Shown piece after piece: positions 1,409 through 40,013 of a stretch of 47,724 nt of DNA. Positions within the stretch are counted from its first letter, which is position 1; each line of letters starts with the position of its first letter. Source of the DNA: Clostridia bacterium (GTDB lineage: Bacteria > Bacillota > DULZ01); assembly GCA_012840125.1 (NCBI GenBank), contig DULZ01000080.1, positions 1-47,724 of the forward strand, in the 5' to 3' direction. A program made the position numbers and the translations under genes. Below the pieces are notes generated by a model that saw nothing but the letters and a program-made list of their open reading frames with translations, did not search any database and was not told the DNA's origin.

Positions 1409-1494
1409 CTCCGTCACCTCCGGTGTTGATTTAGCATCTCCTGCTCCGGAAACGGAAACGCTGGAGATTACCTTCCCCAGCGTTAGGATAGACA

Positions 1495-7119: not shown

Positions 7120-7128
7120 TGGTATAAT
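7120..7128 (+). promoter_or_regulatory. extended -10 promoter of the second permease
   Basis: TGGTATAAT is an exact extended -10 element. No good -35 hexamer stands 17 bases upstream. Because an in-frame ATG overlaps the TATAAT, that ATG cannot be the start of a gene transcribed from here. Confidence 0.6.
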
Positions 7129-7162
7129 GTGGATAATAAACTATGGGGAGAAGGTGCCGGTT

Positions 7163-8470
7163 TTGAGCAAGATTCGCTTACATTATCAATGGGATGACCA
7201 CCCGCCTTTGGGTGAGACCCTCCTGTACGGATTGCAGTGGTTCATCATCACGGTCCCCATCGTGATTATCATCGGTCGGGTGGCGGCGGAACTCCACGGG
7301 TCCCAAGCAGTCTTTCAAGTCGGTTACCTCCAAAAACTGTTTTTCCTCACGGGAGCAGTTAGCCTGGTACAGCTTTTCTGGGGACACCGCCTGCCGGTAA
7401 TCACCGGGCCGGCTACTGTGCTCCTGATCGGCATTATGGCCAGTCAGGGGGAAGACTATCACGAGGTCTATTCCGCCATCATGACCGGGGGCTTCTTGCT
7501 CATGCTGGTCAGTATCACCGGGTTTTTCGGGTACTTGCGCCGGCTCTTTACTCCCCGGGTGGTGGCCACGGTACTGATCCTGATCGCCATCACCCTTACC
7601 CCGATGATGATTGACCTGATTACCGGAAGCGGTGAGGACGACGGGTTTTCCCGCTTCCTCTTTGCCCTGGTTTTCGTCTTCGCCATGTTCGTCGCCAATC
7701 GCTACTTGACCGGCATCTGGAAAGCAACCTTGATCTTGTGGGCCATAATCTCCGGTTCCGCTCTTCATGCCTGGCTCTTTCCCCCGGAATCCGCCGGCAC
7801 ACCGGCCGGATTCCCCTTGGCCGCCGGCTTTATGGACAGCTTCGGTTTTCAATTTTCCCTTAATCCGGGCCTGGTCCTGTCCTTTTTGTTTTGCTTCCTG
7901 GCCCTGGCCGTAAACGATCTAGGCTCCATCCAAGCGGTGGGAGAAATTGTCCGGCCGGATCACCTGGAAAAGAGAATCACCAGGGGCATTGCCGTCTCCG
8001 GCCTGGGTAACACCCTGGCGGGCCTCCTCGGGGTGCCGGGACCGGTCAACTTTTCCCTTACCCCGGGGGTGATTGCCGCCACCGGCTGCGCTTCCCGGCA
8101 TACCCTGACACCTATGGCCTTGGGATTGATTGTTTTGTCCTTTCTCCCCCGTACCATTGCCTTCATGAGCCGGATTCCCCTCTTAATCACCGGCAGCACC
8201 GTTTTGTATATTATGTGTTCCCAAATCGCGGCAGGATTAACCGTTTGCGCCGGCGCCGCGGAGGAGTTCAAACTGGAGCATGGACTGGTGATGGGATTCC
8301 CTATCTTGTTAAGCATCATCGTTTCCTTTTTACCCGAACATACCGTGGCGGATTTTCCCGCCCTCCTGAAGCCTGTATTGAGCAACGGCTTCGCCGCCGG
8401 CGTTTTCACCGTGTTGATCATGGAACACATTATTTTCCGCTCGCCTAGAACTATTCGACCCCGGCAATAA
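7163..8470 (+). CDS. second NCS2-like permease
   Basis: The 435-residue polytopic protein is a distant paralogue of the permease at 86-1408: it shares the LLYGLQWFIITVPIVIIIG opening, the GHRLPVITGPA motif, the NDLGSIQAVGE segment where NCS2 proteins have their substrate-binding acidic helix, and the GVIAATGCASR motif. Substrate is unknown. The start is taken as TTG 7163, with a GGAGAAGGTG stretch ending 6 bases upstream; GTG 7154 is an alternative. The 3' end overlaps convergent comEC by 20 bp. Its position, inverted between comEC and holA, breaks an order that is common in Bacillota and suggests insertion of the gene here. Confidence 0.7.
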   Translation: MSKIRLHYQWDDHPPLGETLLYGLQWFIITVPIVIIIGRVAAELHGSQAVFQVGYLQKLFFLTGAVSLVQLFWGHRLPVITGPATVLLIGIMASQGEDYHEVYSAIMTGGFLLMLVSITGFFGYLRRLFTPRVVATVLILIAITLTPMMIDLITGSGEDDGFSRFLFALVFVFAMFVANRYLTGIWKATLILWAIISGSALHAWLFPPESAGTPAGFPLAAGFMDSFGFQFSLNPGLVLSFLFCFLALAVNDLGSIQAVGEIVRPDHLEKRITRGIAVSGLGNTLAGLLGVPGPVNFSLTPGVIAATGCASRHTLTPMALGLIVLSFLPRTIAFMSRIPLLITGSTVLYIMCSQIAAGLTVCAGAAEEFKLEHGLVMGFPILLSIIVSFLPEHTVADFPALLKPVLSNGFAAGVFTVLIMEHIIFRSPRTIRPRQ

Positions 8471-25586: not shown

Positions 25587-26279
25587 TTACAGGATCTCCA
25601 GGGGTGTGACCAGGCGCTGCCCCTTCAGGGCAAACAGCCCCTGGCGGTGAATCTTCACGGCTCCGGTAACAGGTACTCCTTCCAGTTCCCGTAAAGCCTG
25701 GACTACTTCCTCCGGGCGGACGGCCCCCCGGCTGCCGATTTGCAAATCCATGGTGAAGACTACCGCCCCTTCTCCCGGCGCGGCGGCCAGGCTGAAAATG
25801 CCCGGGCGGATTTCTTGCGGCCGTTCTCCTGCTTTGGTCCGGCGGGAGATGACGATACTGGGACGCGCCAGTAACCGGGCCACCGTCTCGGGCCAGGGCA
25901 GGTCCGGCCCCATCTCCGGCAAAGGCACCGTGACCCGGTACCTGGCGCGTTCGATCACCGCCATCAGAGCCGGGACCTTGCCTTTTATTTCCCTGGCCTC
26001 TTTTACCCGGATGCCCTCAGGTAACGCTTGTCCCAGCTGCATCATTAATCCGGGCAGGGGAACGGGCTCCGCCAGTTCCAAGTCCAAATATTCGGCACTG
26101 CTGGTCACACCCACCGGCAGGGGCGGGCCAAAGGCCAGCTTGGGATGGGGGTTGAATCCCTGGGAATAGGCTACCGGCAGCCCGGCCCGGCGCAGGGCCC
26201 GGGCAAACAGGCGCAAGTAATCCAGGTGGGAAAGGAACCGCACCTGGCTGCCGACACTATACTCCAGCCGGACCAGCAT
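25587..26279 (-). CDS. TIGR03936-family radical SAM-associated protein (DUF2344)
   Basis: The 230-residue protein begins MLVRLEYSVGSQVRFLSHLDYLRLFARALRRAGLPVAYSQGFNPHPKLAFGPPLPVGV, the hallmark of DUF2344. It carries no radical SAM motif itself but nearly always lies next to the TIGR03960 radical SAM gene, here with a 23-bp overlap. In some genomes the two are fused. The biochemical role is unknown. GGGAGGGAAGG lies upstream of the ATG. Confidence 0.88.
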   Translation of the reverse strand: MLVRLEYSVGSQVRFLSHLDYLRLFARALRRAGLPVAYSQGFNPHPKLAFGPPLPVGVTSSAEYLDLELAEPVPLPGLMMQLGQALPEGIRVKEAREIKGKVPALMAVIERARYRVTVPLPEMGPDLPWPETVARLLARPSIVISRRTKAGERPQEIRPGIFSLAAAPGEGAVVFTMDLQIGSRGAVRPEEVVQALRELEGVPVTGAVKIHRQGLFALKGQRLVTPLEIL

Positions 26280-28146
26280 GGCCCTTCCCTCCCTTCAGCA
26301 CCAGATCCACCCCGAAGCCGCCGCATACCTCGCAACCGGTACAGCGGCCTTCCCGGCAGTCCCGGGTCAAAACTCCTTGAAAGGCTTTTTCCCGCTCCCG
26401 CAGCAGGAACCGCTTGCTGACGCCCATATCCAGGTGTTCCCAGGGCAGCACCGCCTCCAAGGGAATGGGCCGGTTGGCATAAAAAGCAGGATCAATGCCG
26501 GTCTCCCGGAAAGCTTGCATCCACCTGGCAAAGGAAAAATGCTCCCGCCAGCTGTCAAATTTACAGCCCAATTCCCAAGCCCGCTCCAAAGCCTCTCCTA
26601 AACGCCGGTCGCCTTTGGCGAAGACGGCCTCCAGGAAGCTTAATTCCGCGTCATGATAATTATAGGTAATGCCTTTCTTCAAGATGGATTTTAAGTAATG
26701 CTGCCTGGCCTTGACTTCTGCCAAGGGTATTTGGGCTTCCCACTGGAAGGGGGTGTGTGCCTTGGGCACATAGGTAGAAACACTGACCGTGACCCGGACT
26801 TTTTTCGTCCTGCCCTGCTCCTTGCTGATCCGCCGTCCCGCCTCCATCACTTTCTCCGCCAGGTCCCGAATGCCGTCCAGGTCTTCCCTGGTCTCGGTGG
26901 GCAGCCCCAGCATAAAGTAGAGCTTAATCCCGGTCCACCCCGCTTCAAAAGCGGCGGTCACCGCCTCCATCAAGTCCCTTTCCCTCACCCCTTTATTGAT
27001 CACATCCCTCAGCCGCTGGGTGCCTGCTTCCGGGGCAAAGGTAAGGCCTGACTTGCGGCCCCGCTGGAGCTCCTTGGCCAGGTGCACCGAAAAAGCATCC
27101 GCCCTGAGGGACGGCAGCGAAACGCTGGTGCCTGTTCCCTGGTACTTGTCCATCAACAGCTTGATTAACGGTTCCAGGCAGGTATAATCCGCCGTGCTGA
27201 GGGAAGTCAGGGAAATCTCCTCGTGGCCGGTGGCCTTAAGGAGCTCCTCCGCCTGCCGGGCCAAGAGTTCCGGATCCCGTTCCCGCACGGGGCGGTAAAG
27301 AATCCCTGCCTGGCAGAAACGGCATCCCCTGGTGCAGCCCCGCAGCACCTCCAACATGGCCCGGTCATGCACCGTCTCCAGGTAAGGAACGATGGGATGG
27401 GTGGGAAAATAAGCCCGGTCCAGGTCCGACACCACCTGCCGGGCCACGCGCGGGGGCACACCCGCCCGGTTGCGGCGGATTTCCACGATAGACCCGTCCT
27501 CCCCGTACCGGATATCATAAAAGCGCGGCACATAGACGCCGGGGAGGCGGGCCGCTTCCAGCAGGAACTGCTCCTTGTCCGGGATGCCGCCGTGCTTGTC
27601 CTTCCAACTCTTCAGCAAATCCAGGAACTGCGGCAAAAGTATTTCCCCGTCCCCTAAAAGAAAGGCATCAAAAAAAGGAACCAAGGGTTCTGGATTGGAG
27701 GCGCAAGGCCCCCCGCCGATCACCAGGGGATACTGCTCGCCCCTGTATTCCGCTCGCACAGGTATCCCGGCTAGGTCCAACATGTTGAGGATATTGGTGA
27801 AACTCATTTCATATTGTAAAGTAAAGCCGATGACGTCAAATTCCTTAAGGGGTCGATAGGATTCCAGGGAAAACAAGGGTACCCGGTGGGCCCGCATGAG
27901 CTCTTCCATATCCCGACCGGGGGCAAAAACCCGCTCCAAGAGGAAATCGTCCCCCCCGTTGACCAAACCGTAGATGATCTGCAGCCCTAAATGGGACATC
28001 CCTATTTCATACACATCAGGGAAGGCAAAAGCCATTTTCACCGGCACCCTGTCCCAGTCTTTATGTACCGCATTCCATTCCGTTCCCAAGTACCGGGCCG
28101 GTTTGAGTACCTGGGGAAGCAACCGGTCTTCTATCAATTGCCGCAT
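26257..28146 (-). CDS. TIGR03960-family B12-binding-type radical SAM protein
   Basis: The 629-residue protein has an N-terminal B12-binding-like Rossmann region (VKMAFAFPDVYEIGMSHLGLQIIYGLVN), then a radical SAM domain with LRGCTRGCRFCQAG (Cys271, Cys275, Cys278). Near the C terminus is a second Cys set at residues 597, 602, 605 and 608 (C-x4-C-x2-C-x2-C), which could hold another Fe-S cluster or zinc. Its reaction is not known; the constant neighbourhood with RNase G and ribosomal protein genes hints at RNA or ribosome modification. AGGAGGAG precedes the ATG. Confidence 0.9.
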   Translation of the reverse strand: MRQLIEDRLLPQVLKPARYLGTEWNAVHKDWDRVPVKMAFAFPDVYEIGMSHLGLQIIYGLVNGGDDFLLERVFAPGRDMEELMRAHRVPLFSLESYRPLKEFDVIGFTLQYEMSFTNILNMLDLAGIPVRAEYRGEQYPLVIGGGPCASNPEPLVPFFDAFLLGDGEILLPQFLDLLKSWKDKHGGIPDKEQFLLEAARLPGVYVPRFYDIRYGEDGSIVEIRRNRAGVPPRVARQVVSDLDRAYFPTHPIVPYLETVHDRAMLEVLRGCTRGCRFCQAGILYRPVRERDPELLARQAEELLKATGHEEISLTSLSTADYTCLEPLIKLLMDKYQGTGTSVSLPSLRADAFSVHLAKELQRGRKSGLTFAPEAGTQRLRDVINKGVRERDLMEAVTAAFEAGWTGIKLYFMLGLPTETREDLDGIRDLAEKVMEAGRRISKEQGRTKKVRVTVSVSTYVPKAHTPFQWEAQIPLAEVKARQHYLKSILKKGITYNYHDAELSFLEAVFAKGDRRLGEALERAWELGCKFDSWREHFSFARWMQAFRETGIDPAFYANRPIPLEAVLPWEHLDMGVSKRFLLREREKAFQGVLTRDCREGRCTGCEVCGGFGVDLVLKGGKGHAGPAGV

Positions 28147-28192
28147 ATAACTCCTCCTGCCGCTTGATCCTCACTCAAATCTAGTCTATCCA

Positions 28193-28201
28193 ATTTTAGC
28201 A
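28193..28201 (-). promoter_or_regulatory. possible extended -10 promoter
   Basis: TGCTAAAAT on the minus strand fits an extended -10 element, 46 bases before the TIGR03960 gene. There is no clear -35 hexamer. It would start the radical SAM-DUF2344-rng-M20 unit. Confidence 0.4.
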
Positions 28202-28244
28202 CAAACTTCTACATGGGATACCCCAAATCCTTTGCCGGGCAGTT

Positions 28245-29114
28245 TTAGGAGACCAGCTTGCCAAGGGGAAGGTACTTGCCATGCTCCAATAAGGCCTGTA
28301 CGATTTGATGCTCCGACAGGGTATGCCATTCCCGGCCGCCTTTTCCCATTACCAAGACCAGGTGATAATAGCCGGGGGTCAGCTTTTCCGCCACCTCCCC
28401 CAGAGTGATCCCTTCAGTGGTCACATACTGCTTGACGGGCAGGACCCCCTGCCTTTTTAACTCCTCCCCTTTGTGGATGAGATACCGGATGAAGATATAA
28501 ATGAAACGGCTCTCTTCCTTCAAGACGGCACCGTACAGGAACGCCGCCATAAAAAGGGTATGGAGGTTACTGGTCCCTAAGAAAATTCCTAGTAACCCCC
28601 ATATGCCGACGGCCGCCGACAGCCCCTTGCTCAGCTTCAGTACCCCGTCGGTGGCCCGGTAAAAGCCCATGGACTTGGCCAGCCAAGCCCGGCATGCCCG
28701 TCCCCCGTCCAGGGGCAGGGCGGGCAGGAGGTTAAAAACCCCCAGCATCAGGTTGGCTTGCAGGAACAGCTCCCCCAGGGGCCAGGCGGCCAGCCAGGGC
28801 CAAAAGAGCCTGCCCAGACCATAGAGCAGCAGATTGCAGGCAGGCCCGGCAAGGCTGACCAGGATTTCCGCCTTGGGGGAATGCTCCAGCATACCGTCGA
28901 TGCGGGCCACTCCCCCAAAAGGAAAAATCTCCACCTCCCCGGGTTTGAGACCGAAACGCCGGGCCGCCAGCAAATGCACCAGTTCATGGATGGTCACCAG
29001 GGCAAAAAGAAGCAGGGTCTCCTTTAAGACCCCTAACAAAGCATAACCCAGCATGAGGAGAATAAAAAAGTCATTAATGATGAACTTGATGCCGAACAGC
29101 CTGCCGAACCGCAT
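28245..29114 (-). CDS. spoIVFB: SpoIVFB-type intramembrane metalloprotease
   Basis: This 289-residue M50 (site-2 protease) family protein has the zinc motif TIHELVHLLAARRFG (His43, Glu44, His47) and the distant ligand in NLLPALPLDGGRA (Asp136), plus about six membrane helices and a C-terminal soluble regulatory domain. In Bacillus SpoIVFB sits in the outer forespore membrane, cleaves pro-sigma-K and is held inactive by SpoIVFA and BofA. The gene lies 13 bases after spoIVFA, as expected. Whether sigma-K is its only substrate here cannot be told. Confidence 0.92.
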   Translation of the reverse strand: MRFGRLFGIKFIINDFFILLMLGYALLGVLKETLLLFALVTIHELVHLLAARRFGLKPGEVEIFPFGGVARIDGMLEHSPKAEILVSLAGPACNLLLYGLGRLFWPWLAAWPLGELFLQANLMLGVFNLLPALPLDGGRACRAWLAKSMGFYRATDGVLKLSKGLSAAVGIWGLLGIFLGTSNLHTLFMAAFLYGAVLKEESRFIYIFIRYLIHKGEELKRQGVLPVKQYVTTEGITLGEVAEKLTPGYYHLVLVMGKGGREWHTLSEHQIVQALLEHGKYLPLGKLVS

Positions 29115-29127
29115 CCAACACCTACTC

Positions 29128-29880
29128 CTAGATACTGGTCTTCACCGGAGCCATGCGCGACAATGGATCAACGGGTTCTCCTTTTTCCCGCACCTCAAAA
29201 TGAATTGTTTTCACATGGCTCGGGGCCCGGCCGCCGGCTTTGCCGATGATGGCCCCCTGCTCCACCACCTGGCCTTCGTCCACCAGCACTTCCCCCAGGT
29301 TCCCGTAGAGGCTGGTTAAACCTCGTCCATGGTCTAATTCCACCACGCGCCCCAGGTAAGGGTCCTGGTCCACCCGGACGACTACCCCGGATAACGTAGC
29401 CCGCACCGGCGCCCCCGGTTCCGCTAGAATGTCGATGCCGCTGTGAAACACCGGCGAATTATCAATGGGAGATCTTTGCCGGCCAAAACCCCTGGCCACT
29501 TTGCCCGACACGGGAATAGCCAGCAGTTCCTCGGTACCGGCTCCCACTTCCAGGTAGTTCTTGTACAGCACCTGATTGTCGAAGGGATCCAGCCACACAC
29601 CGTAACGGGCCATGGCTTCCAGTACCGGCGACATATCGCTCTCCCGCGCCGCCAGGACATAGCGAATATTCTCCTGCACGACCAGGGCTTGCGGGCTTTC
29701 CAGTTGAAAAATGAACAGCAAGCAGAAAAACAGCATGACCACGACGCCGCTTTGCCAAACCCATCGCTTGCTTAGGAAGCGGGGCAGCCGGTGACCCGTC
29801 TCGAAAAAGCTGTCAATACTGCGGTGGCGGTAATCCTCGGAATTCCAAATGTCTTCTAAATCCCGCCAGGTATCTTTCAC
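29128..29880 (-). CDS. spoIVFA: SpoIVFA-type M23-like regulator
   Basis: Read from GTG 29880 the protein has 250 residues: a soluble N-terminal part, one membrane helix (about 45-62), and a LytM/M23-like domain outside with HSGIDILAEPGAPV and IHFEVREKGEPVDP. The second motif has a single His instead of HxH, so it is probably not an active peptidase; SpoIVFA acts as an inhibitor scaffold of SpoIVFB. GGGGGG lies 6 bases upstream of that GTG. A TTG at 29946 also opens the frame but would overlap the likely promoter. Confidence 0.85.
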   Translation of the reverse strand: MKDTWRDLEDIWNSEDYRHRSIDSFFETGHRLPRFLSKRWVWQSGVVVMLFFCLLFIFQLESPQALVVQENIRYVLAARESDMSPVLEAMARYGVWLDPFDNQVLYKNYLEVGAGTEELLAIPVSGKVARGFGRQRSPIDNSPVFHSGIDILAEPGAPVRATLSGVVVRVDQDPYLGRVVELDHGRGLTSLYGNLGEVLVDEGQVVEQGAIIGKAGGRAPSHVKTIHFEVREKGEPVDPLSRMAPVKTSI

Positions 29881-29916
29881 CTTGGACCCCCCTAGGACAG
29901 GCAATTCTTCTACTGT

Positions 29917-29944
29917 AATATATTCGGTCCTTACCAAAATATGC
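29917..29944 (-). promoter_or_regulatory. sigma-E-like promoter before spoIVFA
   Basis: On the minus strand GCATATT (29938-29944), a 13-base spacer and AATATATT (29917-29924) resemble the mother-cell sigma-E consensus (-35 ATATT type, -10 CATA type). Sigma-E controls spoIVFA and spoIVFB in Bacillus. The -10 part is imperfect. Confidence 0.4.
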
Positions 29945-29978
29945 AAACATTCCTGTCCCGGCCGGGGTCAACCGGTGT

Positions 29979-31127
29979 TTAGAAGAGAATCTTTTGCCGC
30001 CGCATCCCCACGTTTAAGGCCAACCCCAGGGCGGTGAGATTGACCAGCATGCTGCTGCCCCCGTAACTGAAGAGAGGCAGGGGGATCCCGGTAATCGGCA
30101 TGATGCCGATGGTCATGCCGACGTTGATCAACAGGTGAAACAGGATCATGGAAACTACGCCGACGACGATCAAACAGCCGAACATATCCTTGGCATGAAA
30201 GGCAATCAGCAGTAAACGGTAAATGAGCAAGAGATAAAGGAGCAAGAAAAGGGCCGCCCCGACAAAACCGAATTCCTCACCGAGAACGGAAAAAATGAAA
30301 TCAGTGTGGTGCTCGGGCAAAAAGTTCCCCTGCACCTGGGACCCCTTACCCCAGCCTTTGCCCCACAGGCCCCCGGAGCCGACGGCCACGATGGATTGGA
30401 TGACATTGTACCCGAATCCCAATCCTCCTTTGCCGTCGTTGTACGGGTCAATGAAGGCCAGCAAGCGCTGGATTTGGTGGGTCTTAAGAGGCAGCCACTC
30501 GAAAACGTTCAGGTGAAACCATACTCCCACGATGACAAAAATTAAGCCGCCAAATCCCAGGGCCAGCAGGATCCGCAGGTTCGCCCCGGCCACAAACATC
30601 ATGCCGAAATAGATTCCGATAAACACCATCGCCGTACCCATATCCGGCTGCAGCATGATGAGGGCCATGGGGGCGGCCACATAAACAAAGGTAGGCAAAA
30701 AATCCCGGAAAGTTTTAAGCTCATTTTGCCGGTCCGCCAAGAACTGGGCAAAAGTCATGATAAACAAGAGTTTTGCCACTTCGGCCGGCTGCAGGTGCAT
30801 AAACCCCAGGTCAATCCAGCTCTGGGCTCCTTTGCTGGTATGGCCGATGCCCGGTACCAGCACGATGACCAGCAGAAACACCATGAGCCCATAGATCTGT
30901 TTTTGCCTCGGGGCGAACTGGACATAATTGACGCCCAGAATCGCAAACATGCCTACTAAGCCAAGGGCAATATTCATCAAATGCCGCTGGGCATAATAAT
31001 ACGGTTTCGACGGTATCACCGATTGGGAGGCACTGGATACCACTACGGCGCTGAAAGCCAAAATGGCCAGGATGACCGCAATCAGGAGGAAATCCAAGTT
31101 TTTCAGCAGTTTTTTTTCGATATACAC
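29979..31127 (-). CDS. rodA: RodA, SEDS peptidoglycan glycosyltransferase
   Basis: The 382-residue protein with about ten membrane helices polymerises glycan strands during cell elongation together with PBP2. SEDS signatures include WIDLGFMHLQPAEVAKLLFIM, the YNVIQSIVAVGSGGLWGKGWGKGSQVQGNFLPEHHTDFIFSVLGEEFG region and GIPLPLFSYGGSSML. The start is GTG 31127 with GGGGAGGTGA upstream. It shares the operon with mreBCD, mrdA and minCDE, though a terminator and promoter-like site lie just in front. Confidence 0.93.
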   Translation of the reverse strand: MYIEKKLLKNLDFLLIAVILAILAFSAVVVSSASQSVIPSKPYYYAQRHLMNIALGLVGMFAILGVNYVQFAPRQKQIYGLMVFLLVIVLVPGIGHTSKGAQSWIDLGFMHLQPAEVAKLLFIMTFAQFLADRQNELKTFRDFLPTFVYVAAPMALIMLQPDMGTAMVFIGIYFGMMFVAGANLRILLALGFGGLIFVIVGVWFHLNVFEWLPLKTHQIQRLLAFIDPYNDGKGGLGFGYNVIQSIVAVGSGGLWGKGWGKGSQVQGNFLPEHHTDFIFSVLGEEFGFVGAALFLLLYLLLIYRLLLIAFHAKDMFGCLIVVGVVSMILFHLLINVGMTIGIMPITGIPLPLFSYGGSSMLVNLTALGLALNVGMRRQKILF

Positions 31128-31148
31128 GGTTTCACCTCCCCAGTGACC

Positions 31149-31175
31149 ATTATAAAGAAAAAAACCCCTTATCAA
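31149..31175 (-). promoter_or_regulatory. possible internal promoter of rodA
   Basis: TTGATA (31170-31175) and TATAAT (31149-31154) lie on the minus strand with a 15-base spacer, shorter than ideal. The -35 overlaps the loop of the preceding terminator. It could restart transcription for rodA-spoIVFA-spoIVFB. Confidence 0.45.
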
Positions 31176-31181
31176 AAGGGG
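31157..31181 (-). terminator. terminator between minE and rodA
   Basis: CCCCTT-5-AAGGGG (31165-31181) is followed by TTTTTTT on the minus strand, beginning 7 bases after the minE stop. The stem is only 6 bp, so it may attenuate rather than stop transcription. Confidence 0.75.
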
Positions 31182-31187
31182 CAAAAA

Positions 31188-31481
31188 TTATACCGTCTCT
31201 TGCTCCTTGACATTTCTTTTCAGCCTCAAAATAGGGATATTGCACACAAGTGCCACTGCATTGTCATCGCTATTAAAACTCACTTCCAAACCGGTTTGAT
31301 CGATTTCCATATACTCGGAAATGACCCGGATCAAATCCTCTTTCAGGGCTTGCAAAGTAGCCGGTGACATGCTCGCCCGGTCCTGTACCAAAACCAGCCG
31401 CAGCCGTTCTTTGGCGGTATTCTTGCTGGCTGTGGACTGATCTCTTTTCAGACCCAAAGCTCGCAGGATGAATTCTAACAC
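31188..31481 (-). CDS. minE: cell division topological specificity factor MinE
   Basis: The 97-residue protein is MinE, which stimulates the MinD ATPase and drives pole-to-pole oscillation. It has the N-terminal membrane-targeting helix (MLEFILRALG), the anti-MinCD stretch AKERLRLVLVQDRA and the C-terminal dimer domain with VISEYMEIDQTGLEVSF. The start is GTG with AAGGGGGAG upstream. Presence of MinE, rather than DivIVA/MinJ alone, is a feature of many clostridia. Confidence 0.95.
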   Translation of the reverse strand: MLEFILRALGLKRDQSTASKNTAKERLRLVLVQDRASMSPATLQALKEDLIRVISEYMEIDQTGLEVSFNSDDNAVALVCNIPILRLKRNVKEQETV

Positions 31482-31505
31482 GTCCGCTCCCCCTTCGTGT
31501 TGACT

Positions 31506-32297
31506 TTAGCCCGCACCAAACAACCGGCGCAGCCGCTTGAAAAATCCTTCCGCTTCCAGATTCATCAGGGGGACATGCTCACCGGTAATACGCCTGGCAA
31601 TATTACGATAAGCTTCCCCGGCCTTTGACCTTTGGTCCAGCACCGCTGGTTCTCCCTTGTTGGTGGAAATGACAATGGTTTCATCCTCGGGTACTACGCC
31701 GATGAGGTCTATGGCTAGAATTTCAATCATATCATCGATGTCCATCATGTCGCCCTTCTTCACCATGTTGGGGCGAATCCGGTTGATAATCAGCTTCGGA
31801 TCGTTCAATCCGGCCGCCTCCAACAAACCAACAATCCGGTCCGCATCCCGCACGGCCGCCACTTCCGGCGTAGTCACCACCAAAGCTTTTTCGGCACCGG
31901 CGATGGCATTCTTAAAACCCTGCTCAATCCCGGCGGGACAGTCAACAATGACATAATCGAACTCTTCTTTCAACTGGCCCGTTAACTCCTGCATTTGCTG
32001 CTCCGATACCGCCGTCTTGTCCTTCGTCTGGGCCGCCGGGAGAAGAAAAAGATCCTCAAACCGCTTGTCCTTAATCAACGCCTGCTTGAGGCGGCAGTTG
32101 CCGGAAACCACATCCACGATATCGTAAACAATCCTGTTCTCCAACCCCATCACAACGTCCAGGTTGCGCAGGCCGATGTCCGTATCCACCAATACCACTC
32201 TCTTGCCCATAACCGCCAGCCCTGTTCCGATGTTGGCTGTGGTAGTAGTCTTACCAACTCCACCTTTACCAGAGGTGACTACAATTACTTCCCCCAT
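31506..32297 (-). CDS. minD: septum site-determining ATPase MinD
   Basis: This 263-residue ParA/MinD-type ATPase carries the deviant Walker A motif TSGKGGVGKTTTTANIG, a switch I/II with DTDIGLRNLDVVMG and YVIVDCPAGIEQG, and a C-terminal amphipathic membrane-targeting helix (GFFKRLRRLFG). It recruits MinC to the membrane. GAGGAGGAAAA precedes the ATG. Confidence 0.97.
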   Translation of the reverse strand: MGEVIVVTSGKGGVGKTTTTANIGTGLAVMGKRVVLVDTDIGLRNLDVVMGLENRIVYDIVDVVSGNCRLKQALIKDKRFEDLFLLPAAQTKDKTAVSEQQMQELTGQLKEEFDYVIVDCPAGIEQGFKNAIAGAEKALVVTTPEVAAVRDADRIVGLLEAAGLNDPKLIINRIRPNMVKKGDMMDIDDMIEILAIDLIGVVPEDETIVISTNKGEPAVLDQRSKAGEAYRNIARRITGEHVPLMNLEAEGFFKRLRRLFGAG

Positions 32298-32330
32298 GAC
32301 TTTTCCTCCTCTTCCTAAGTGAAAACTATC

Positions 32331-32789
32331 CTATTGGTTGAAGAATTTGTTACTACCGGGAGGGTAACTTTCGATCACTAAGGTGCCCCCCGCGATGCGG
32401 GCAATCTCAGGCTGTTGCGGTTCAGGGTATTTCCCATCAGGCGCCCGGGTAAAATGATTGGCAATCCTAAGTTGAGAAGGATTAAGCCGGAAAGCGGCAA
32501 CCATAGCCCGTTCATTTCCGGTGGCACCGGCATGCGCCACTCCTCTTAAGTTGCCCATTACAATAATATTGCCCCCAGCAATGACTTCGGCCCCAGGGTT
32601 CACATCTCCCATGATCACGACATTACCGGGATAGCGGATGCTCTGGCCGGACCGCAGGGTGCGCTGCAAAAGTATCGTATTCTCCGCGTCAATTTCCGGC
32701 CATTCTTGAGCTAACCCACTTTTATCCTCTCCTTGGGATGGAGTTGTTTCATGAGCTCGTCCTTCGCCTACCCTTGAGGTAAACTTCAT
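32331..32789 (-). CDS. minC: MinC lacking the N-terminal domain
   Basis: This 152-residue protein is shorter than usual MinC (about 210-230). Residues about 38-148 form the C-terminal beta-helix domain (TILLQRTLRSGQSIRYPGNVVIMGDVNPGAEVIAGGNIIVMGNLRGVAHAG) that dimerises and binds MinD. The first ~35 residues are polar and low in structure (GRAHETTPSQGEDKSG) and do not look like the N-terminal FtsZ-inhibiting domain. AGGAGGAGATGCT immediately before ATG 32789 fixes the start; the frame is open to 32864 but adds only Gly/Ser/Pro-rich sequence. The 212 bases up to mrdA cannot encode the missing domain. Confidence 0.88.
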   Translation of the reverse strand: MKFTSRVGEGRAHETTPSQGEDKSGLAQEWPEIDAENTILLQRTLRSGQSIRYPGNVVIMGDVNPGAEVIAGGNIIVMGNLRGVAHAGATGNERAMVAAFRLNPSQLRIANHFTRAPDGKYPEPQQPEIARIAGGTLVIESYPPGSNKFFNQ

Positions 32790-33000
32790 AGCATCTCCTC
32801 CTGAAAACCTTGAGAAACCATTGCCCGGATTAAACCCTGAAGGTCTTGGGAGCTTGTCCTCCATGCCACCGCAATTGCTAAAAATTAACTTCTACAGAAC
32901 ACTCCCAAATCCTTCCCCTTCTCCAAAAAAACGAGCCGGTTTTTTCCTTGTTTTTCCATCATTTTCAGACACCAGTTTCCCTTTTCCTCTGAGCCGCCGT

Positions 33001-35088
33001 TTACTCGGCAGGAATCTCGACATAGAACTCCGGCGGGAGCGTGAATTCTTCTTCTTTCTCATTGAGACCGAAATACTCTTCAAAAACAGCTTTCGCCACA
33101 TAACCGGCTGAACCGCTGCCGGACATGCCGTATTCTACAATACCGGCAAAAGCCAGCTGCGGGTCGTCGACCGGGGCAAAAGCAATAAACACGCCGTGAA
33201 AATCATTTTTGCCGTCGCCCGCCAACCCGGTCTCCGCCGTGCCGGTCTTGGCTCCCACCTTGATGTATTCCGGAAAATGGCGGAAAAGGGAGTAAGCCGT
33301 TCCCCCCGGCGCCGTGGTGTTCAGCATGGCCCTGGCTGTTCTGGCCAGGGTTTCCTTGTTCATAGGCACCTCCATTATTAATTCAGGCTCAAATTGCTTG
33401 ACCAGGTTGCCCTCCGCATCATAAATGGAATCCACCAGGTAGGGTTTGTACCGGTAGCCCCCGTTAACCAAAGTGGCCACGTAATTGGCCAGCTGCAGCA
33501 TGGTGTAGCTGTTGGATCCCTGCCCGATGGAAGTATTATAGGTATCAAAAGGCTGCCAGGTGGTTTCGAAATTCAAATCGATCCGGTACCGGGCTTCCAA
33601 GCTCCGCTCTTCCTGCTGCTGCTTGGCCCGGAGGGCCGCCTTTTCCTCTTCGGTGACCGCTTGCTGCAGCAGGTCCTCATACTTCTTGGCCAGGTTCTCC
33701 CGCAGCCTGTCATACTTGCGGTTGATGAGCACCGTGTTGAGCTCTTTCTTCCATTCCGGTGTCGGCAAGACCCCTTTTGCTTCGCCGGGCAAGTCCGTCA
33801 ACCCTGTCGGTGAACCCAGACCTAAAGCCTGGCCCACCCGGACAATATGGTCGATACCCGCCAGTTCGGCGGCATACTGGAAAAAGGTGTTGCAGGAGAC
33901 GGCCATGGCCCGGTCAAAGTCCACCCGTCCATGGGCCTGCCAGCATTTGATATATGGCGGTTTCCAGTATCTCCCGGCACAGTTAACCGACAAATTTCCG
34001 CCGGTTAACTTCCCGGACTCCAGCAGAGCCAAGGCAGTAACTGGCTTAAACGTGGACCCGGGGGGATACACCGCTTGAATGGCCCGGTTGAACGCCGGCT
34101 TTAGATCCTGGTCGTTGTAATAATCCCTTTTTTGCCCGTAACTGCCGTCCACAAAGTCATTGGGATTCATGGTGGGATAGGAAGCCATGGCCAGGATGGC
34201 ACCGGTCTTGACATCAATCACCACGCCGGCTCCGGCCCTGGATTTGGGATTTTTGTTTGCTTGAATTTGCAGGATCACTTCTTCCAAGCTCTCTTCCAGC
34301 ACTTTCTGCAAATCATAATCAATGGTCAGTTTAAGGGTATGGCCTTGCGTGGGCTCCAGGGTCACCGGGAATTCCCGCACTATCCGGTGCCTGGCATCTA
34401 CTTCCACCGGCTGGGCTCCTTTTTGTCCCCGCAGCCCGCCAATAATCTGCCGGTCATCCTCCCAGATTTCATAGGTCCGCTCCAAACCGGTCTTGCCGAT
34501 CCGGTCGTTCAAGCTGTAATCATAGTCCTGGTACAGTTCCAATTCCTTTTCGCTGATGGCACCTTCGTACCCGATAATATGGCCCGCCAGGGTTCCTTCC
34601 GGGTAATACCGCATGGGTTCCGCCCTGATCACCAGCCCCGGCAGTTCGCTGCGCCTTTCTTCCAACTTGGTAATCAAAGTAACCGCTTCTTCACCCCAGG
34701 GCAGCCGGTAGATTTCCAGGGATTCGAAACGCCTGGCGTGATTGTTCAACTTTTGGATGATACTGTCGGCAGTTATTTCCGGGTCGTCCAGGAGTTCCGC
34801 CAGCCTTTCCGCCACCTGCCTCTCCAGTGCCGCATCGTTGAGATGGGACACGGAGATGGTATAGACCGGCTTACTGGTGGCCAGCACTTTGCCGTCGGCG
34901 GTCATGATCTCACCCCGGCTGGCAGGAATGGACAGCATCCGGATCCGGTTGCCGTCGGATTTTAATTGATAGGCCTCGGCATTGATGACCTGGAGCATAA
35001 ACAACCTGGCCAGCAGGACCAGGAAAATGAGCACGGTTACACCAAAATACACTTTTAACTTCAGGTGCAGTTCCTTGTTCTCTTCCAT
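33001..35088 (-). CDS. mrdA: penicillin-binding protein 2 (elongation transpeptidase)
   Basis: The 695-residue class B PBP crosslinks peptidoglycan in the elongasome with RodA. It has one N-terminal membrane helix (about 13-34), a dimerisation/pedestal domain, and a transpeptidase domain with PPGSTFKPVTAL (active Ser345, Lys348), the AVSCNTFF SxN motif and GAKTGTAETG. An insertion rich in Glu/Lys/Gln (about 445-500) lies before the last part. The start at 35088 has GGGGAGG 6 bases upstream; a GTG at 35094 lies within that site. It follows mreD by 22 bases. Confidence 0.95.
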   Translation of the reverse strand: MEENKELHLKLKVYFGVTVLIFLVLLARLFMLQVINAEAYQLKSDGNRIRMLSIPASRGEIMTADGKVLATSKPVYTISVSHLNDAALERQVAERLAELLDDPEITADSIIQKLNNHARRFESLEIYRLPWGEEAVTLITKLEERRSELPGLVIRAEPMRYYPEGTLAGHIIGYEGAISEKELELYQDYDYSLNDRIGKTGLERTYEIWEDDRQIIGGLRGQKGAQPVEVDARHRIVREFPVTLEPTQGHTLKLTIDYDLQKVLEESLEEVILQIQANKNPKSRAGAGVVIDVKTGAILAMASYPTMNPNDFVDGSYGQKRDYYNDQDLKPAFNRAIQAVYPPGSTFKPVTALALLESGKLTGGNLSVNCAGRYWKPPYIKCWQAHGRVDFDRAMAVSCNTFFQYAAELAGIDHIVRVGQALGLGSPTGLTDLPGEAKGVLPTPEWKKELNTVLINRKYDRLRENLAKKYEDLLQQAVTEEEKAALRAKQQQEERSLEARYRIDLNFETTWQPFDTYNTSIGQGSNSYTMLQLANYVATLVNGGYRYKPYLVDSIYDAEGNLVKQFEPELIMEVPMNKETLARTARAMLNTTAPGGTAYSLFRHFPEYIKVGAKTGTAETGLAGDGKNDFHGVFIAFAPVDDPQLAFAGIVEYGMSGSGSAGYVAKAVFEEYFGLNEKEEEFTLPPEFYVEIPAE

Positions 35089-35110
35089 GGTCACCCTCCC
35101 CTCGGCAAGA

Positions 35111-35608
35111 TCACCGGCGTTCCGGGCGAAGCAGCCCTTCCGTCAGAGAACGGTACAAGGGCCGGTAAAGTAAAATCCCCAGCAATGTGTTATAAGCACA
35201 TAAAGGCAGTACCATGTGGCTGAAAGGTGCCCAGGCGCCTCCCCCTGCCACCAGGGAAAACAACATGAAGTAGATAAGCAAGAAACCCAGGGTGCCGGTA
35301 AACACAGCGAAAACCGGTACCAGGATATTGTCTTTAAAAAACCTTTTCTCGCCCCAGCCGATGGCATAACCCACCAGCATCTTGCAGGCCGCATTTAACC
35401 CCACATAATTGCCCAGCAGCAGGTCCTCCACCAGGCCGTAAACAAACCCCAGCTTCGCTCCCGCTGCGCTGCCCCGGAATAAGGAATAGATGATGACCAG
35501 CACCAGGAGCAAATCCGGTTTGACACCGGCCAGGGTTAAGTGGTTAAACAAGGTTGCCTCTAAGGTCAAAGAGAGGAATAAAGCGGCACCTAAAATAAAA
35601 TAGTGCAT
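35111..35608 (-). CDS. mreD: rod shape-determining protein MreD
   Basis: The 165-residue protein with five to six membrane helices (HYFILGAALFLSLTLEATLFNHLTLAGVKPDLLLVLVIIYSLFRG opening) is MreD, which links MreC with the RodA-PBP2 pair. It begins right after the mreC stop and has GGGAGGGG upstream. Sequence conservation of the family is low; the call rests on hydrophobic pattern, size and position between mreC and mrdA. Confidence 0.92.
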   Translation of the reverse strand: MHYFILGAALFLSLTLEATLFNHLTLAGVKPDLLLVLVIIYSLFRGSAAGAKLGFVYGLVEDLLLGNYVGLNAACKMLVGYAIGWGEKRFFKDNILVPVFAVFTGTLGFLLIYFMLFSLVAGGGAWAPFSHMVLPLCAYNTLLGILLYRPLYRSLTEGLLRPERR

Positions 35609-36445
35609 TTATTCCCCTCCCTTCTCGCTGAGAATGACAAACACTTCCTCGATCCGGTCAAAGTCCACAAAAGGCATGATCAGCGCTTTTTTCATCAACC
35701 CGTTGGGTTCGTCCACCACTTCCACCACGTAGCCAATCCGTAGCCCTTTAGGAAAAATGCCTCCCAACCCGGAGGTGATCACCGTCTGGTTCTCCTTCAC
35801 CGGGCTGTCATGAGGAAGCTGGATCATCTGTAACGGTATGTCCTTATCCCCGGTACTTTCCACGATGCCGGGAAAACGAGTGCTTTGGATCATGCCGCCC
35901 AGGGCACCCTCGTGATCCAGGATTAACACCACTTCCGCCGAACGTTCTCCCACCGTACCGAGCCTGCCGACCACTCCCTTGGGAGTAATGACCGCCATGC
36001 CTTCCCTTAACCCATGGTTTCGCCCCCGGTCAATGGTCAGGGTCTGGCGCCAGTTGGAAGGGTTGCGGGCCACCACCCTGGCGGCCAGCATGTCGAAATG
36101 GTCGGCCAGGTTCTCCCCGAAATTCAGCATAGCCCGCAGCCGGATATTCTCTAAACGGTACTCCTCCGTTAGCTGCACCCGTCTTTCCAATTCCGCCAGC
36201 TGCTGTCTCAGCGCTTCATTCTCCAATTGGAGTTGGTGATAATGAGCCACCCTATCTACCACACTTCTGCAGGATTGAATTACCGTGGTCACACCACTTT
36301 CCAAAGGGGCAAGCAAATCCTGCCAAAAAGCCTCCAGCCGGGTCAATAGAGGGCGTTCCATTCTGGTAAAAAAAGCCAGTACAACACACAATAGTAAAAC
36401 AGCCAAAAGGATCCAAACCCTTTGGTTCACCCTCCGGCGTCGCAC
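35609..36445 (-). CDS. mreC: rod shape-determining protein MreC
   Basis: The 278-residue protein has a short basic N terminus, one membrane helix (about 10-26), a coiled coil (LQLENEALRQQLAELERRVQ, about 72-92) and the outer beta domain with VVARNPSNWRQTLTIDRG and GVVGRLGTVGERSAEVVLI. It activates the RodA-PBP2 polymerase. The start is GTG 36445 with AAGGGGCG upstream; a GTG at 36430 abuts GGAGG and is less likely. Confidence 0.94.
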   Translation of the reverse strand: MRRRRVNQRVWILLAVLLLCVVLAFFTRMERPLLTRLEAFWQDLLAPLESGVTTVIQSCRSVVDRVAHYHQLQLENEALRQQLAELERRVQLTEEYRLENIRLRAMLNFGENLADHFDMLAARVVARNPSNWRQTLTIDRGRNHGLREGMAVITPKGVVGRLGTVGERSAEVVLILDHEGALGGMIQSTRFPGIVESTGDKDIPLQMIQLPHDSPVKENQTVITSGLGGIFPKGLRIGYVVEVVDEPNGLMKKALIMPFVDFDRIEEVFVILSEKGGE

Positions 36446-36462
36446 CGTATTTCACGCCCCTT

Positions 36463-37503
36463 TTACACCATCTTTCTCGGTGGCACTAACACCCTCTTTA
36501 ACATATTAATATTCTCTAAAACTTTGCCCGTACCTTTTGCCACTGCGGTCAAAGGCTCTTCTGCCATCTGCACCGGCATGCCGGTCTCTTCCCGCACCAG
36601 CTCGTCCAATCCCCACAGCAGGGAGCCGCCTCCCGCCATCACAATGCCCCGGTCCATGATGTCAGCGGCTAATTCAGGCGGGGTTTTTTCCAAGCACACT
36701 TTGATCCCTTCGATGATATGGCTCACCGGCTCCTGCAGGGCGCCCTGAATCTCCGGAGCCGACACTTCAATGGTTTTCGGCAAGCCGGTTACCATATCCC
36801 GGCCGCGCACCTGGTAGGTGCGGGAACGTCTCTCCCCGGCCTCCGGCCCGCGGCCGAAATAAGCGGCCCCGATGGCCACTTTGATTTCTTCCGCCGTTCT
36901 TTCCCCAATCATTAAATTGTAAGCTTTCTTGATGTGGCTTGCGATGGCTTCATCCATCTCGTCACCGCCGATCCGGATGGAGCGGCTGGAGACGATGCCG
37001 CCCAAAGAGATGATGGCCACTTCCGTGGTACCGCCACCGATATCCACGATCATATTGCCGGTGGGTTCATGCACCGGCATCCCCGCACCGATGGCCGCCG
37101 CCATGGGCTCTTCGATGAGAAAAGCCTCCTTGGCTCCGGCTTGCAGGGCCGCTTCCTTTACGGCCCGCTCTTCGACGGCGGTAACCCCTGAGGGAACCCC
37201 GATCACCACCCGGGGACGAATGAGAAAACCTTTCTTGATGACTTTATGAATAAAGTAATGGAGCATGCTCTGGGTGATGTCGAAATCAGCAATGACTCCA
37301 TCCTTAATGGGCCTGATGGCGACAACATTACCCGGGGTACGGCCGATCATTTTCTTGGCCTCTTCCCCCACGGCTAAGACTTTACCTGTTTCCCGCGCAA
37401 TGGCCACCACGGAGGGTTCTTGGACCACCACCCCGCTGCCTCTCATATATACAATCGTGTTGGCTGTACCCAAATCTATGCCGAGATCCCTGGTGAATAA
37501 CAT
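36463..37503 (-). CDS. mreB: actin-like protein MreB
   Basis: The 346-residue protein begins [35 protein letters not shown] and has the actin-fold phosphate loops IDLGTANT and [13 protein letters not shown], and the adenosine motif [10 protein letters not shown]. It forms short membrane filaments that guide wall synthesis. GAAGGAGATATCTC precedes the ATG. It is first in the shape-division operon, behind the promoter at 37561-37589. Confidence 0.97.
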
Positions 37504-37900
37504 GAGATATCTCCTTCCATGTCAAAGAAACTCCAGAAAGTATGGCTAGTTACAAACATCATTGTATAGGTTTGACTCTAAGTATTCAAGAAAAGTTTCC
37601 GGGCTGGTACATGGTATAACATGGAAAGGAGAATACCACGAGAAGGCAGCCGGTGTGAGTCGAGGGTCCATTTGGAGTAGCAAGCAAAAGAGCAAAGGAG
37701 CCTATCACGGCAAAAAGCCACCGGCAGCCGGGCGCCGGGTTGCGTTTCCATTGTGCTTAAGTCTAGACCCGAAAAGATGACCCGGACCCCCGGCGACCGG
37801 CGGCTGGATTCTTACGACCGTTATTGAGCCCTTCCCCGAACGGGGCTTCCTCCGGACTCCGGTTAACACCGGCTGCCCCGGTGCCTGCGGGCTGAGCCGC
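37504..37900 (-). other. gene-free region between radC and mreB (mreB promoter plus unexplained structured DNA)
   Basis: This 397-base stretch has no gene I can support. Its left part holds the mreB leader and promoter (to 37589). From 37590 to 37900 it is GC-rich and full of short inverted repeats: CCCCG-2-CGGGG (37834-37845), CCGGT-4-ACCGG around 37859-37872, and GGCAAAAAGCC near 37709-37719. On the plus strand TGGTATAAC (37612-37620) looks like an extended -10 element. There is no T-run terminator in either direction. It may be a radC 3' untranslated region, a small RNA gene, or a decayed gene. Confidence 0.5.
37561..37589 (-). promoter_or_regulatory. mreB operon promoter
   Basis: TTGAAT (37584-37589), a 17-base spacer and TACAAT (37561-37566) form a strong sigma-A promoter on the minus strand, about 58 bases before the mreB start. 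Confidence 0.75.
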
Positions 37901-38587
37901 TCACAGTCTGCCTTCTTTTTTGAAACTATAATACCGGCCGTCACCGATGATCACATGGTCCAGCACTTCAATGCCCAGGATCCGGCCCGCCTCCACCAAC
38001 CGGCCGGTGATGGACAGGTCTTCCGGGCTGGGGTTGGGATCACCGCTGGGATGGTTGTGGGCCAGGATCACTGCGGCGGCACTCCTTTTGATAGCATTCT
38101 TGAAAAGCTCCCGCGGGTGGACGACGGTGGAATTGAGACTCCCTATGGAGACGGTTTCCGTGGCCAGCACTTGATGCTTGGTATCCAAAAGGAGCACGAT
38201 GAAATGCTCCCGGTCCAGGTAGCGCATTTTTTCCATTAAGAGCGCCACCACATCTTGGGGCGTTTTGATGGCCGGCCGCACTTCCCCGCCTTCCAGTGCC
38301 AGCCGCCGACCCAGTTCAACGGCCGCTTTGATCTGGCTGGCTTTCGCCAAGCCAACCCAGGGAATCTGCAGCAAATCATGCAGACTGGCTTCCGCCAGGA
38401 AGCGCAGGCCTTTCGGCTGGGCCAGGATCCGGTGGGCCAGTTCCAGGGCACTTTCATACTTGCTGCCGGTGCCCAGGAGGATGGCCAGCAATTCCCCGTC
38501 CGTCAACGCCTCCGGTCCCATTTTCTCCATTTTTTCCCTTGGACGCATATCCGGAGGTAAATCCTTAATGGTCCAACGGTAGTCCAA
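37901..38587 (-). CDS. radC: RadC family JAB/MPN-domain protein
   Basis: This 228-residue protein has the N-terminal UPF0758/HhH part (REKMEKMGPEALTDGELLAILLGTGSK, IPWVGLAKASQIKAA) and the C-terminal JAMM metal motif LAHNHPSGDPNPSPED (His177, His179, Asp190). Despite its name a DNA repair role is not established; the fold is that of a metalloprotease-like hydrolase. The start is TTG 38587 with GGGGAGGG upstream. It is last in rex-maf-radC. Confidence 0.93.
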   Translation of the reverse strand: MDYRWTIKDLPPDMRPREKMEKMGPEALTDGELLAILLGTGSKYESALELAHRILAQPKGLRFLAEASLHDLLQIPWVGLAKASQIKAAVELGRRLALEGGEVRPAIKTPQDVVALLMEKMRYLDREHFIVLLLDTKHQVLATETVSIGSLNSTVVHPRELFKNAIKRSAAAVILAHNHPSGDPNPSPEDLSITGRLVEAGRILGIEVLDHVIIGDGRYYSFKKEGRL

Positions 38588-38613
38588 CCTGGTCCCTCCC
38601 CGTCACAAAGCTG

Positions 38614-39186
38614 TTAAGAGAGCTTGACTCCTTTAGCTCTTAACATCAAGTAGAGCCTGGTCAGGGGCAGCCCCACAACATTGAAATAGCAGCCGTCAAT
38701 GCGTTCAACCAAAATGGAGCCCTTGCCCTGGATGCCGTAGGCACCGGCCTTGTCCAACGGCTCCCCGGTGGCCACATACCAGTCAATCTCCTCTTCCTCC
38801 AGCCGGCGGAACCAAACGGCAGTGGTTTCATGACAGAGATCGATGGCTCCGTTAATTGTGTCCACCAGCGCCAAGCCGGTTATTACTTCATGCCGCCGTT
38901 CACTCAAGCGGCGGAGCATATCCTTGGCCTCCTGCGGGGAACTTGGTTTCCCCAGGACTGCCCCGTCCAGGACCACGATGGTATCAGCTCCTATCACCAG
39001 CGCATCTTTGACTTCCCCGGCCACATCTTGCGCTTTGAGCAGGGCCAGCTGCCTGGCCACTTCTTCCGGCGGTAAAGCCTGATCTACTTTCTCTTCTGCT
39101 TGGCTGGCTTGTACGGCAAAAGGTATACCCAGCGTTTCCAATAGCATTTTCCTTCTTGGGGAAGCAGAAGCCAGTATGAGCCGCAA
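38614..39186 (-). CDS. maf: Maf family nucleotide pyrophosphatase
   Basis: Read from TTG 39186 the protein has 190 residues and opens LRLILASASPRRKMLLETLGIPF, the Maf signature. SQAEEKVDQ, VIGADTIVVLDGAVLGKP and GAYGIQGKGSILVERIDGCYFNVVGLPL complete the family pattern. Maf proteins hydrolyse dTTP, UTP or modified nucleotides. GGAGGAAAGGGA lies directly upstream, whereas GTG 39216, which also opens the frame, lies inside the preceding terminator stem. Confidence 0.92.
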   Translation of the reverse strand: MRLILASASPRRKMLLETLGIPFAVQASQAEEKVDQALPPEEVARQLALLKAQDVAGEVKDALVIGADTIVVLDGAVLGKPSSPQEAKDMLRRLSERRHEVITGLALVDTINGAIDLCHETTAVWFRRLEEEEIDWYVATGEPLDKAGAYGIQGKGSILVERIDGCYFNVVGLPLTRLYLMLRAKGVKLS

Positions 39187-39203
39187 TCCCTTTCCTCCTC
39201 CAT

Positions 39204-39233
39204 AAAAAAATAACACCTTGCAACCAAGGCGTT
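39204..39233 (-). terminator. terminator between rex and maf
   Basis: A 9-bp stem with one G-T pair (39212-39220 and 39225-39233) and a 4-base loop is followed on the minus strand by ATTTTTTT. It directly abuts the rex stop codon and precedes the maf ribosome binding site. Confidence 0.82.
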
Positions 39234-39878
39234 TTATAATTCAATCCCTCGCCGGTAGCCGAGGTTGAAAGTCAAGATCTCCATGTTCACGGACAGATCG
39301 ACGTTGCGCAGTTCCACATCGGGAGGCACATTCAGCACCACCGGGGCAAAGTTCAACAGCGCCTTGACGCCTGCATCAATGAGCATCTCCGCCACTTCCT
39401 GCGCAGCTGATGCCGGCACCGTGATCACACCGATCTTGGCTTTCTCCGCTTGCGCTACTTCCTTGAGCTTGTTCAGGGGGAAGACTTCCACCCCATTGAG
39501 TTTGTACCCGATTTTGTTCGGGTCGTTATCAAAGATACCGACGACGTAAAAACCTCTCTCTCTAAAGCCGCCGTACATGGACAAAGCGGTCCCTAAGTTA
39601 CCTGCCCCCACAATCACAACCGGCCACTTTTGCGTTAGGCCGAGAATCTTCATAATGTGATGATGCAAATCTTTCACATTGTAACCTACACCACGGGTAC
39701 CGAACTCACCGAAATACGCCAAATCCTTGCGCACTTGTGCCGAGCTCACACCGACCCCTTCCGCAATCTCATTGGAAGAGATGGTGACAATACCCCGCCG
39801 GTCACAGGAAGCCAAGTACCTGGAATAGACCGACAGCCGGATAATTGTGGCTTCTGGGATCTTTAAAGTCTTCAACAC
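39234..39878 (-). CDS. rex: redox-sensing repressor Rex
   Basis: The protein (214 residues from GTG 39878) senses the NADH/NAD+ ratio and represses fermentation and respiration genes when NADH is low. It has a winged-helix domain ([42 protein letters not shown]) and a Rossmann domain with [24 protein letters not shown] lies 2 bases before ATG 39881, 5 before GTG 39878 and 8 before TTG 39875, so GTG or TTG is preferred. The frame is open to 39917 without use. It heads the rex-maf-radC group. Confidence 0.95.
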
Positions 39879-39931
39879 CATTCCTCCCCAAGGTAAGTTA
39901 AATTCATCACGTAACATAACAACTATTGTAT

Positions 39932-39959
39932 ATTATAAACGATTAACGGGTAAAAACAA
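39932..39959 (-). promoter_or_regulatory. rex promoter
   Basis: TTGTTT (39954-39959), a 16-base spacer and TATAAT (39932-39937) lie on the minus strand about 50 bases before rex. Confidence 0.65.
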
Positions 39960-39973
39960 AGAGGCAATTAGCA

Positions 39974-39998
39974 TTTTTTGTTAGGTGTTAACAAAAAA
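39974..39998 (-). promoter_or_regulatory. palindrome upstream of the rex promoter, Rex-box-like
   Basis: A perfect 10-bp inverted repeat, TTTTTTGTTA-5-TAACAAAAAA, lies 15 bases upstream of the rex -35 hexamer. The core TTGTTA...TAACAA is that of the Rex operator, but the gap is 5 bases instead of the usual 6. It suggests autoregulation. It is also just behind the folC stop, but lacks a T-run placed as a terminator would need. Confidence 0.5.
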
Positions 39999-40013
39999 GA
40001 TAATAATTATTCA

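Follow-up and report, generated by a model that had tools for sequence, protein, structure and literature searches.

The minC gene in the min operon of a Clostridia bacterium encodes the C-terminal domain of MinC alone (C-only MinC), and a complete minC stands elsewhere in the same genome. Pairing of a C-only operonic MinC with an unlinked complete MinC is a rule among the genomes compared, one that rests on few independent events. MinC work appears, from the sequences, to be divided between two genes, and the recurring two-gene split suggests that both proteins share one job. The best explanation, to which we give about even odds (roughly 0.5), is a divided MinC in which the C-only and the full protein would co-assemble, probably as mixed dimers.

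A C-only MinC in the min operon

The window, that is, the whole stretch of 47,724 nucleotides that was analyzed, carries the following features around minC.

32331..32789, minus strand: C-only MinC, 152 aa; predicted disordered tail at residues 1-27, beta-helix domain at about 38-142, RSGQ at 46-49
32795..32802, minus strand: strong ribosome binding site AGGAGGAG, directly 5' of the ATG at 32789
32790..33000, minus strand: gap between mrdA and minC, the only place for a MinC_N domain; none found with our own profile in six frames
31506..32297, minus strand: MinD, 263 aa; TIGR01968, 418.9 bits
31188..31481, minus strand: MinE, 97 aa; PF03776, E 1.5e-24
33001..35094, minus strand: upstream neighbor, presumably MrdA (penicillin-binding protein 2); same place in relatives
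29979..31184, minus strand: downstream neighbor, RodA-like protein; conserved gene order

The C-only minC is separated by 211 bp from mrdA above it and by 33 bp from minD below; minE and then a rodA-like gene follow, and the order in relatives is mreC-mrdA-minC-minD-minE-rodA. We take 33001..35094 to be mrdA, as in the first-pass annotation, and the name RodA is our assumption. MinD and MinE are both full-length, as the first-pass annotation had said. Just below rodA, an M50 peptidase (PF02163) follows an M23/LytM-type-like peptidase (window 28245-29946, minus strand), an order that resembles spoIVFA-spoIVFB below mreBCD-minCD in B. subtilis. Elsewhere in the window, two xanthine/uracil-type permeases (PF00860) are encoded on opposite strands within 8 kb (86-1495, minus strand, and 7127-8470, plus strand).

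The open reading frame of C-only MinC runs on the minus strand from the ATG at 32789 to the stop at 32331 (152 codons). It scores over the cut-off of MinC_C (PF03775) at residues 41-140 (E 4.7e-36, 123.3 bits vs. 33.2), and a Pfam search up to E 1 found no match to the MinC_N models PF05209 or PF22642. With its C-domain alone, the protein also passes TIGR01222, the NCBIfam equivalog for minC (111.2 vs. a cut-off of 95.25). The MinD-binding motif RSGQ is at residues 46-49. A FapA or other beta-solenoid identity was rejected, as PF03961 scored 29.9, below 31.0, and only over a 32-residue stretch. Structure prediction, which had been proposed as a check, gave a disordered tail (residues 1-27) and a beta helix, with AlphaFold2 confident at about residues 41-110 (pLDDT >90 per ten-residue block) and less sure beyond. 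The best solved match was the MinC C-domain of A. aeolicus in the MinC:MinD complex 4v02 (Foldseek E 7e-12; phmmer 6.7e-25). Like MinC in general, the protein may dimerise, bind MinD and FtsZ, and inhibit the Z ring.

The sequence SGGD is encoded ahead of the start of C-only minC and recurs in two other loci (L007 and L008). Both relatives from its family have a frame that opens just 7 codons 5' of the same start. A second in-frame ATG is found at 32864, and no comparable ribosome site was seen 5' of it. We built our own MinC_N profile from 13 full-length relatives, and it had no match in any of the six frames of window 26001-40000. Since this profile found nothing, there is no frameshifted MinC_N remnant of at least 40 residues near C-only minC. 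The family relatives showed neither a frameshift nor a 5' region aligning with MinC_N; full-length operonic minC exists in more distant relatives and is presumed to be the ancestral form. The first-pass annotation was therefore right that the operonic MinC is a C-only protein of 152 residues (open reading frame, Pfam, and MinC_N profile agree), and right that a missed start is ruled out, given the ribosome site at ATG 32789, none like it at 32864, and no MinC_N upstream.

A second, complete MinC in the same genome

The genome that we searched has 2.47 Mb in 106 contigs and is 97% complete. It contains two matches to MinC_C and one match to MinC_N, and the latter belongs to a complete second copy.

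Contig C34, about 12111-12794, minus strand: full MinC (second copy), 227 codons; MinC_N + MinC_C

The ATG of this gene is preceded by the ribosome site GGGGGAGG, and both Pfam domains of the product are over the cut-off (MinC_N 53.2 vs. 27.3, MinC_C 116.3 vs. 33.2). Residues 16-224 of its 237-aa frame align with MinC from T. maritima (1hf2), and AlphaFold2 gave a two-domain model. The gene stands alone, flanked by two genes on the other strand, and no minD was found within the 12 kb examined around it. Both other genomes examined from the same class contain the same pair of a C-only and a complete MinC.

The first-pass annotation had stated that a C-only MinC must inhibit by FtsZ-tail binding alone, or else use a separate partner. 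With a complete MinC on contig C34 the first option is not supported as a necessity, and the second is favored. The partner is not the stand-alone N-domain protein that was to be searched for, as there is none in the genome and MinC_N occurs only within the full-length second copy.

Distribution of the C-only form

In a sample of 398 genomes of the phylum, 331 have MinC_C, with many of the matches listed in short frames. Named genomes, when scanned, contributed 80 loci, almost all of them in the order mreC-mrdA-minC-minD-minE-rodA. Besides the gene of the window, the MinC_N profile identifies 54 operonic minC genes as C-only, with no MinC_N in any frame; at least three of these repeat a counted genome, and the count leaves out L116 (Chloroflexota, with a divergent full-length N-region) and L088, which runs off its contig. 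In Bacillota this amounts to about 50 other genes. C-only operonic minC occurs, among others, in Desulfotruncus, Desulfofundulus, Pelotomaculum, Desulforadius, Desulforamulus, Desulforudis, Carboxydocella, Moorella, and Sulfobacillus, and complete operonic minC in, for example, Heliobacterium and Syntrophothermus. In all C-only loci with readable flanks, the C-only form occupies the operon place of the complete gene. The tails of the C-only proteins vary from 12 to 86 residues ahead of RSGQ (L116 dropped), with a median of 36 (L116 included). Their sequences differ, and no common motif was seen in them by eye.

Beside a textbook MinC the C-only gene looks truncated, as would be expected from a sequencing, assembly, or start-site error or from a decaying pseudogene. 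This explanation is rejected with near certainty, because the same form was found in the 54 other loci and the C-domain of the C-only proteins ranks highest in conservation among the MinC domains that we compared.

Three other loci are worth recording. The operonic MinC of L116 (5641-6333, about 227 aa) has an N-terminal region outside both Pfam MinC_N models. L063 is from a bin labeled Armatimonadetes, and its C-only MinC operon groups with Desulfotomaculum relatives; the bin label or the contig may be wrong. In L035 (1441-2433), a long and very basic linker (KKKKKHSKRH) joins the two domains of a complete operonic MinC, whose stop-to-stop frame has 331 aa.

Co-occurrence of the two proteins

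A second, full-size MinC is encoded elsewhere in 40 of the 41 genomes with a C-only operonic MinC, a figure that includes G110 (operonic copy L171, second copy L010), which was added to the C-only side. The sole exception, G259, is 63% complete. The second MinC_C is over the cut-off, in a frame of 209-293 aa, in 39 of 40 C-only genomes, and MinC_N is over the cut-off in 37 of 40. In the Sulfobacillus loci L096 and L113 the second copy has 229-232 residues and its N-region is weak in every profile. A second copy was found in just 3 of the 39 genomes with a complete operonic MinC. The sample comprised 40 of 58 "short" entries, chosen by hand with repeats and some metagenome bins left out, and on the complete side 40 entries, likewise hand-chosen, of 59 "long" ones (five of the 59 being second-copy loci). 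Fisher's test gave p 5.5e-18 for the pairing, ignoring relatedness of the genomes. This value overstates the evidence, because the well-supported branches of the MinC_C+MinD tree give only one independent pair. In many genomes MinC_C also matched, weakly, frames of about 480-690 aa. These are probably FapA-like beta-solenoid proteins, a reading based on the PF03961 score of MinC itself.

Shift of constraint between the copies

Mean pairwise identities were compared at matched MinD identity, in bins. At MinD identity 0.65-0.70, C-domain identity was 0.629 for the C-only proteins (n = 180 pairs), 0.566 for complete operonic MinC (n = 289), and 0.365 for second copies (n = 180 pairs). N-domain identity in the same bin was 0.366 for second copies and 0.259 for complete operonic MinC. 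The same ranking was found across the MinD bins from 0.60 to 0.80. The lowest bin holds 3 pairs, and at 0.8-0.9, the highest bin (54 and 9 pairs), both domains are better conserved in complete operonic MinC. Over all pairs, N-domain minus C-domain identity was −0.01 for second copies and −0.30 for complete operonic MinC. The 39 complete-operonic rows keep L056, L057, and L087, which own a second copy, and the column and paired identity figures are without L116 and L088.

Single columns were also compared. Operonic MinC of either kind conserves R115, E128, R82, R108, N64, and Q106 at 95-100%, and second copies do so at 40-72%. R46, G48, and the helix-turn glycines are invariant throughout. In phmmer alignments, R108 and R115 were not common to solved MinCs outside Bacillota. 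RSGQ is retained in the C-only proteins and mostly retained in second copies (R 100, S 93, G 100, Q 85%). The simple view that the second copy has lost MinD binding was therefore not upheld; second copies may be able to bind MinD unaided, with no need of a partner. In six second copies from Desulfotomaculum relatives (L138, L140, L142, L149, L158, and L164), the C-domain is strongly diverged and has lost the RGxxHAG and PE motifs, and the N-domain is conserved.

Judged by these identities, selection is shifted: the C-domain of the second copy is relaxed, and its N-domain is tightened compared with single-MinC genomes. Equal constraint on the C-domains would be expected if the two copies merely coexisted, but the constraint differs between them. 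The pattern implies that the operonic C-only protein kept the ancestral duties of the C-domain and that the unlinked protein kept the duty of the N-domain.

Another explanation is that C-only MinC is a natural antagonist. It would occupy MinD and form mixed or empty dimers, leaving fewer N-domains at the membrane. It would then determine how strongly Min inhibits, and it may act on the MinDE cycle instead of sharing in FtsZ inhibition. A protein with RSGQ and without an N-domain would suit this role, and according to PMC6803595 the MinD site is common to MinC and MinE and excess MinC disturbs MinDE patterns. A mere competitor, however, would explain neither the relaxed C-domain of the full MinC nor the replacement of the complete gene by the C-only one in the operon, and we think this explanation somewhat unlikely.

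Origin and neighborhood of the second copy

In the MinC_C+MinD tree, which is weakly resolved, C-only and complete operonic genes are intermixed, with 7 changes between the forms. A single origin of the C-only form gave an AU p of 0.27, and one clade is thus compatible with the data. The tree of MinC_C only (57 "short" rows, including L116 and L088) has too few columns; in this weak tree, second copies mostly stand apart from operonic ones. Among 21 second-copy loci, one neighborhood (F1) was found in 11, mostly in Desulfotomaculum relatives, and another (F2) in 7, among them the genome of the window, its family, and Moorella. These conserved neighborhoods fit old vertical inheritance. The full-length duplicates of Syntrophothermus and Thermosyntropha show that minC can be duplicated and the operonic N-domain kept.

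The ancestor would have had a complete minC in an mreBCD-mrdA-minCDE-rodA cluster, and a duplicate of this minC would have arisen at an unlinked site. Loss of the N-domain would then have turned the operonic copy into C-only MinC (we infer this direction of loss), and the unlinked copy would have kept and tightened its N-domain and relaxed its C-domain.

From their translations, we take the genes next to second copies to be pyk, pfkA, coaD, pycB, thiolase, glycogen synthase, and Nudix genes. The flanks look metabolic, and no link to sporulation genes was seen in the 21 neighborhoods. This bears on the idea that the two proteins have separate roles, with C-only MinC and MinD blocking the FtsZ tail during growth and full MinC acting alone at other times, for example at the asymmetric sporulation septum. 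The two genes are unlinked, DivIVA and Spo0A are encoded in the genome, and the E. coli C-domain with MinD can antagonise Z rings (PMC11938149). Besides the absence of a sporulation link, though, the two proteins are mutually dependent in their occurrence, and in E. coli the effect of overproducing just the C-domain was small (PMC5548801). We consider separate roles unlikely. Given MinE, DivIVA, and Spo0A in the genome, the MinE cycle and sporulation may both be involved.

How the two proteins may work together

The accepted view of MinC (PMC11938149, PMC3618327, PMC6803595) is that of a C-domain that dimerises and binds MinD and the FtsZ tail, and an N-domain directed at the filament, by attack or capping. 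In E. coli, as relayed by PMC6803595, a MinC dimer still complements when a single subunit is MinD-competent. In a divided MinC, the C-only protein, made together with MinD and MinE, would be the MinD-coupled, dimerising subunit, and the unlinked full MinC would supply the N-domain, which would cap FtsZ filaments or weaken them. The two would meet at the dimer face of the C-domain, on membrane-bound MinD, either as mixed dimers or within mixed arrays of MinC and MinD. Part of the N-domain delivery would be in trans, and the ratio of the two MinCs would presumably set the N-domain dose on MinD. Mixed dimers are favored because the C-domain dimer is a natural meeting place and asymmetric E. coli dimers are workable. 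The second minC gene is outside the minCDE transcript, which counts against co-assembly, as does the RSGQ motif kept by most second copies.

A stronger version can be put forward only tentatively, namely that MinC is obligately split in a broad set of spore-forming Bacillota. The C-only, MinD-coupled subunit and the unlinked full subunit would form a heterodimer in which the N-domain of the full subunit attacks FtsZ, while its own C-domain would be insufficient for MinD-dependent activity.

Relation to known Min systems and implications

C-only MinC shares the beta helix, RSGQ, adjacency to minD and minE, and the C-domain fold of 4v02 with the MinC of MinCDE and MinCD systems (TIGR01222; PF03775 + PF05209). 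It differs from it in having a disordered tail instead of MinC_N and in the complete MinC encoded elsewhere. The MinC-CTD constructs of E. coli have the same domain content and are known to bind MinD and, jointly with it, to target the FtsZ tail (PMC11938149, PMC5548801), but they are laboratory truncations, whereas C-only MinC is a natural, conserved product. The proposed asymmetric dimer resembles the mixed dimers of E. coli MinC in which only one subunit was MinD-competent (Park et al. 2015, as relayed in PMC6803595); those were engineered, and from the text relayed there both subunits apparently had N-domains. In open-licence PubMed Central we found no description of a natural operonic MinC that is C-only and paired with a complete MinC at an unlinked locus. 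The separate parts are known, and the natural pair across a broad group is undescribed there.

Annotation hides the C-only form: scoring over the cut-off of the general MinC model, it would receive the name of a normal MinC. The pair touches several debated points about MinC: tail binding by the C-domain vs. filament capping by the N-domain, the need for dimer symmetry, and the importance of MinC-MinD copolymers. It is a natural experiment on the roles of the two halves of MinC, in which the MinD-coupled half is on its own gene, so that removal of either gene would test each.
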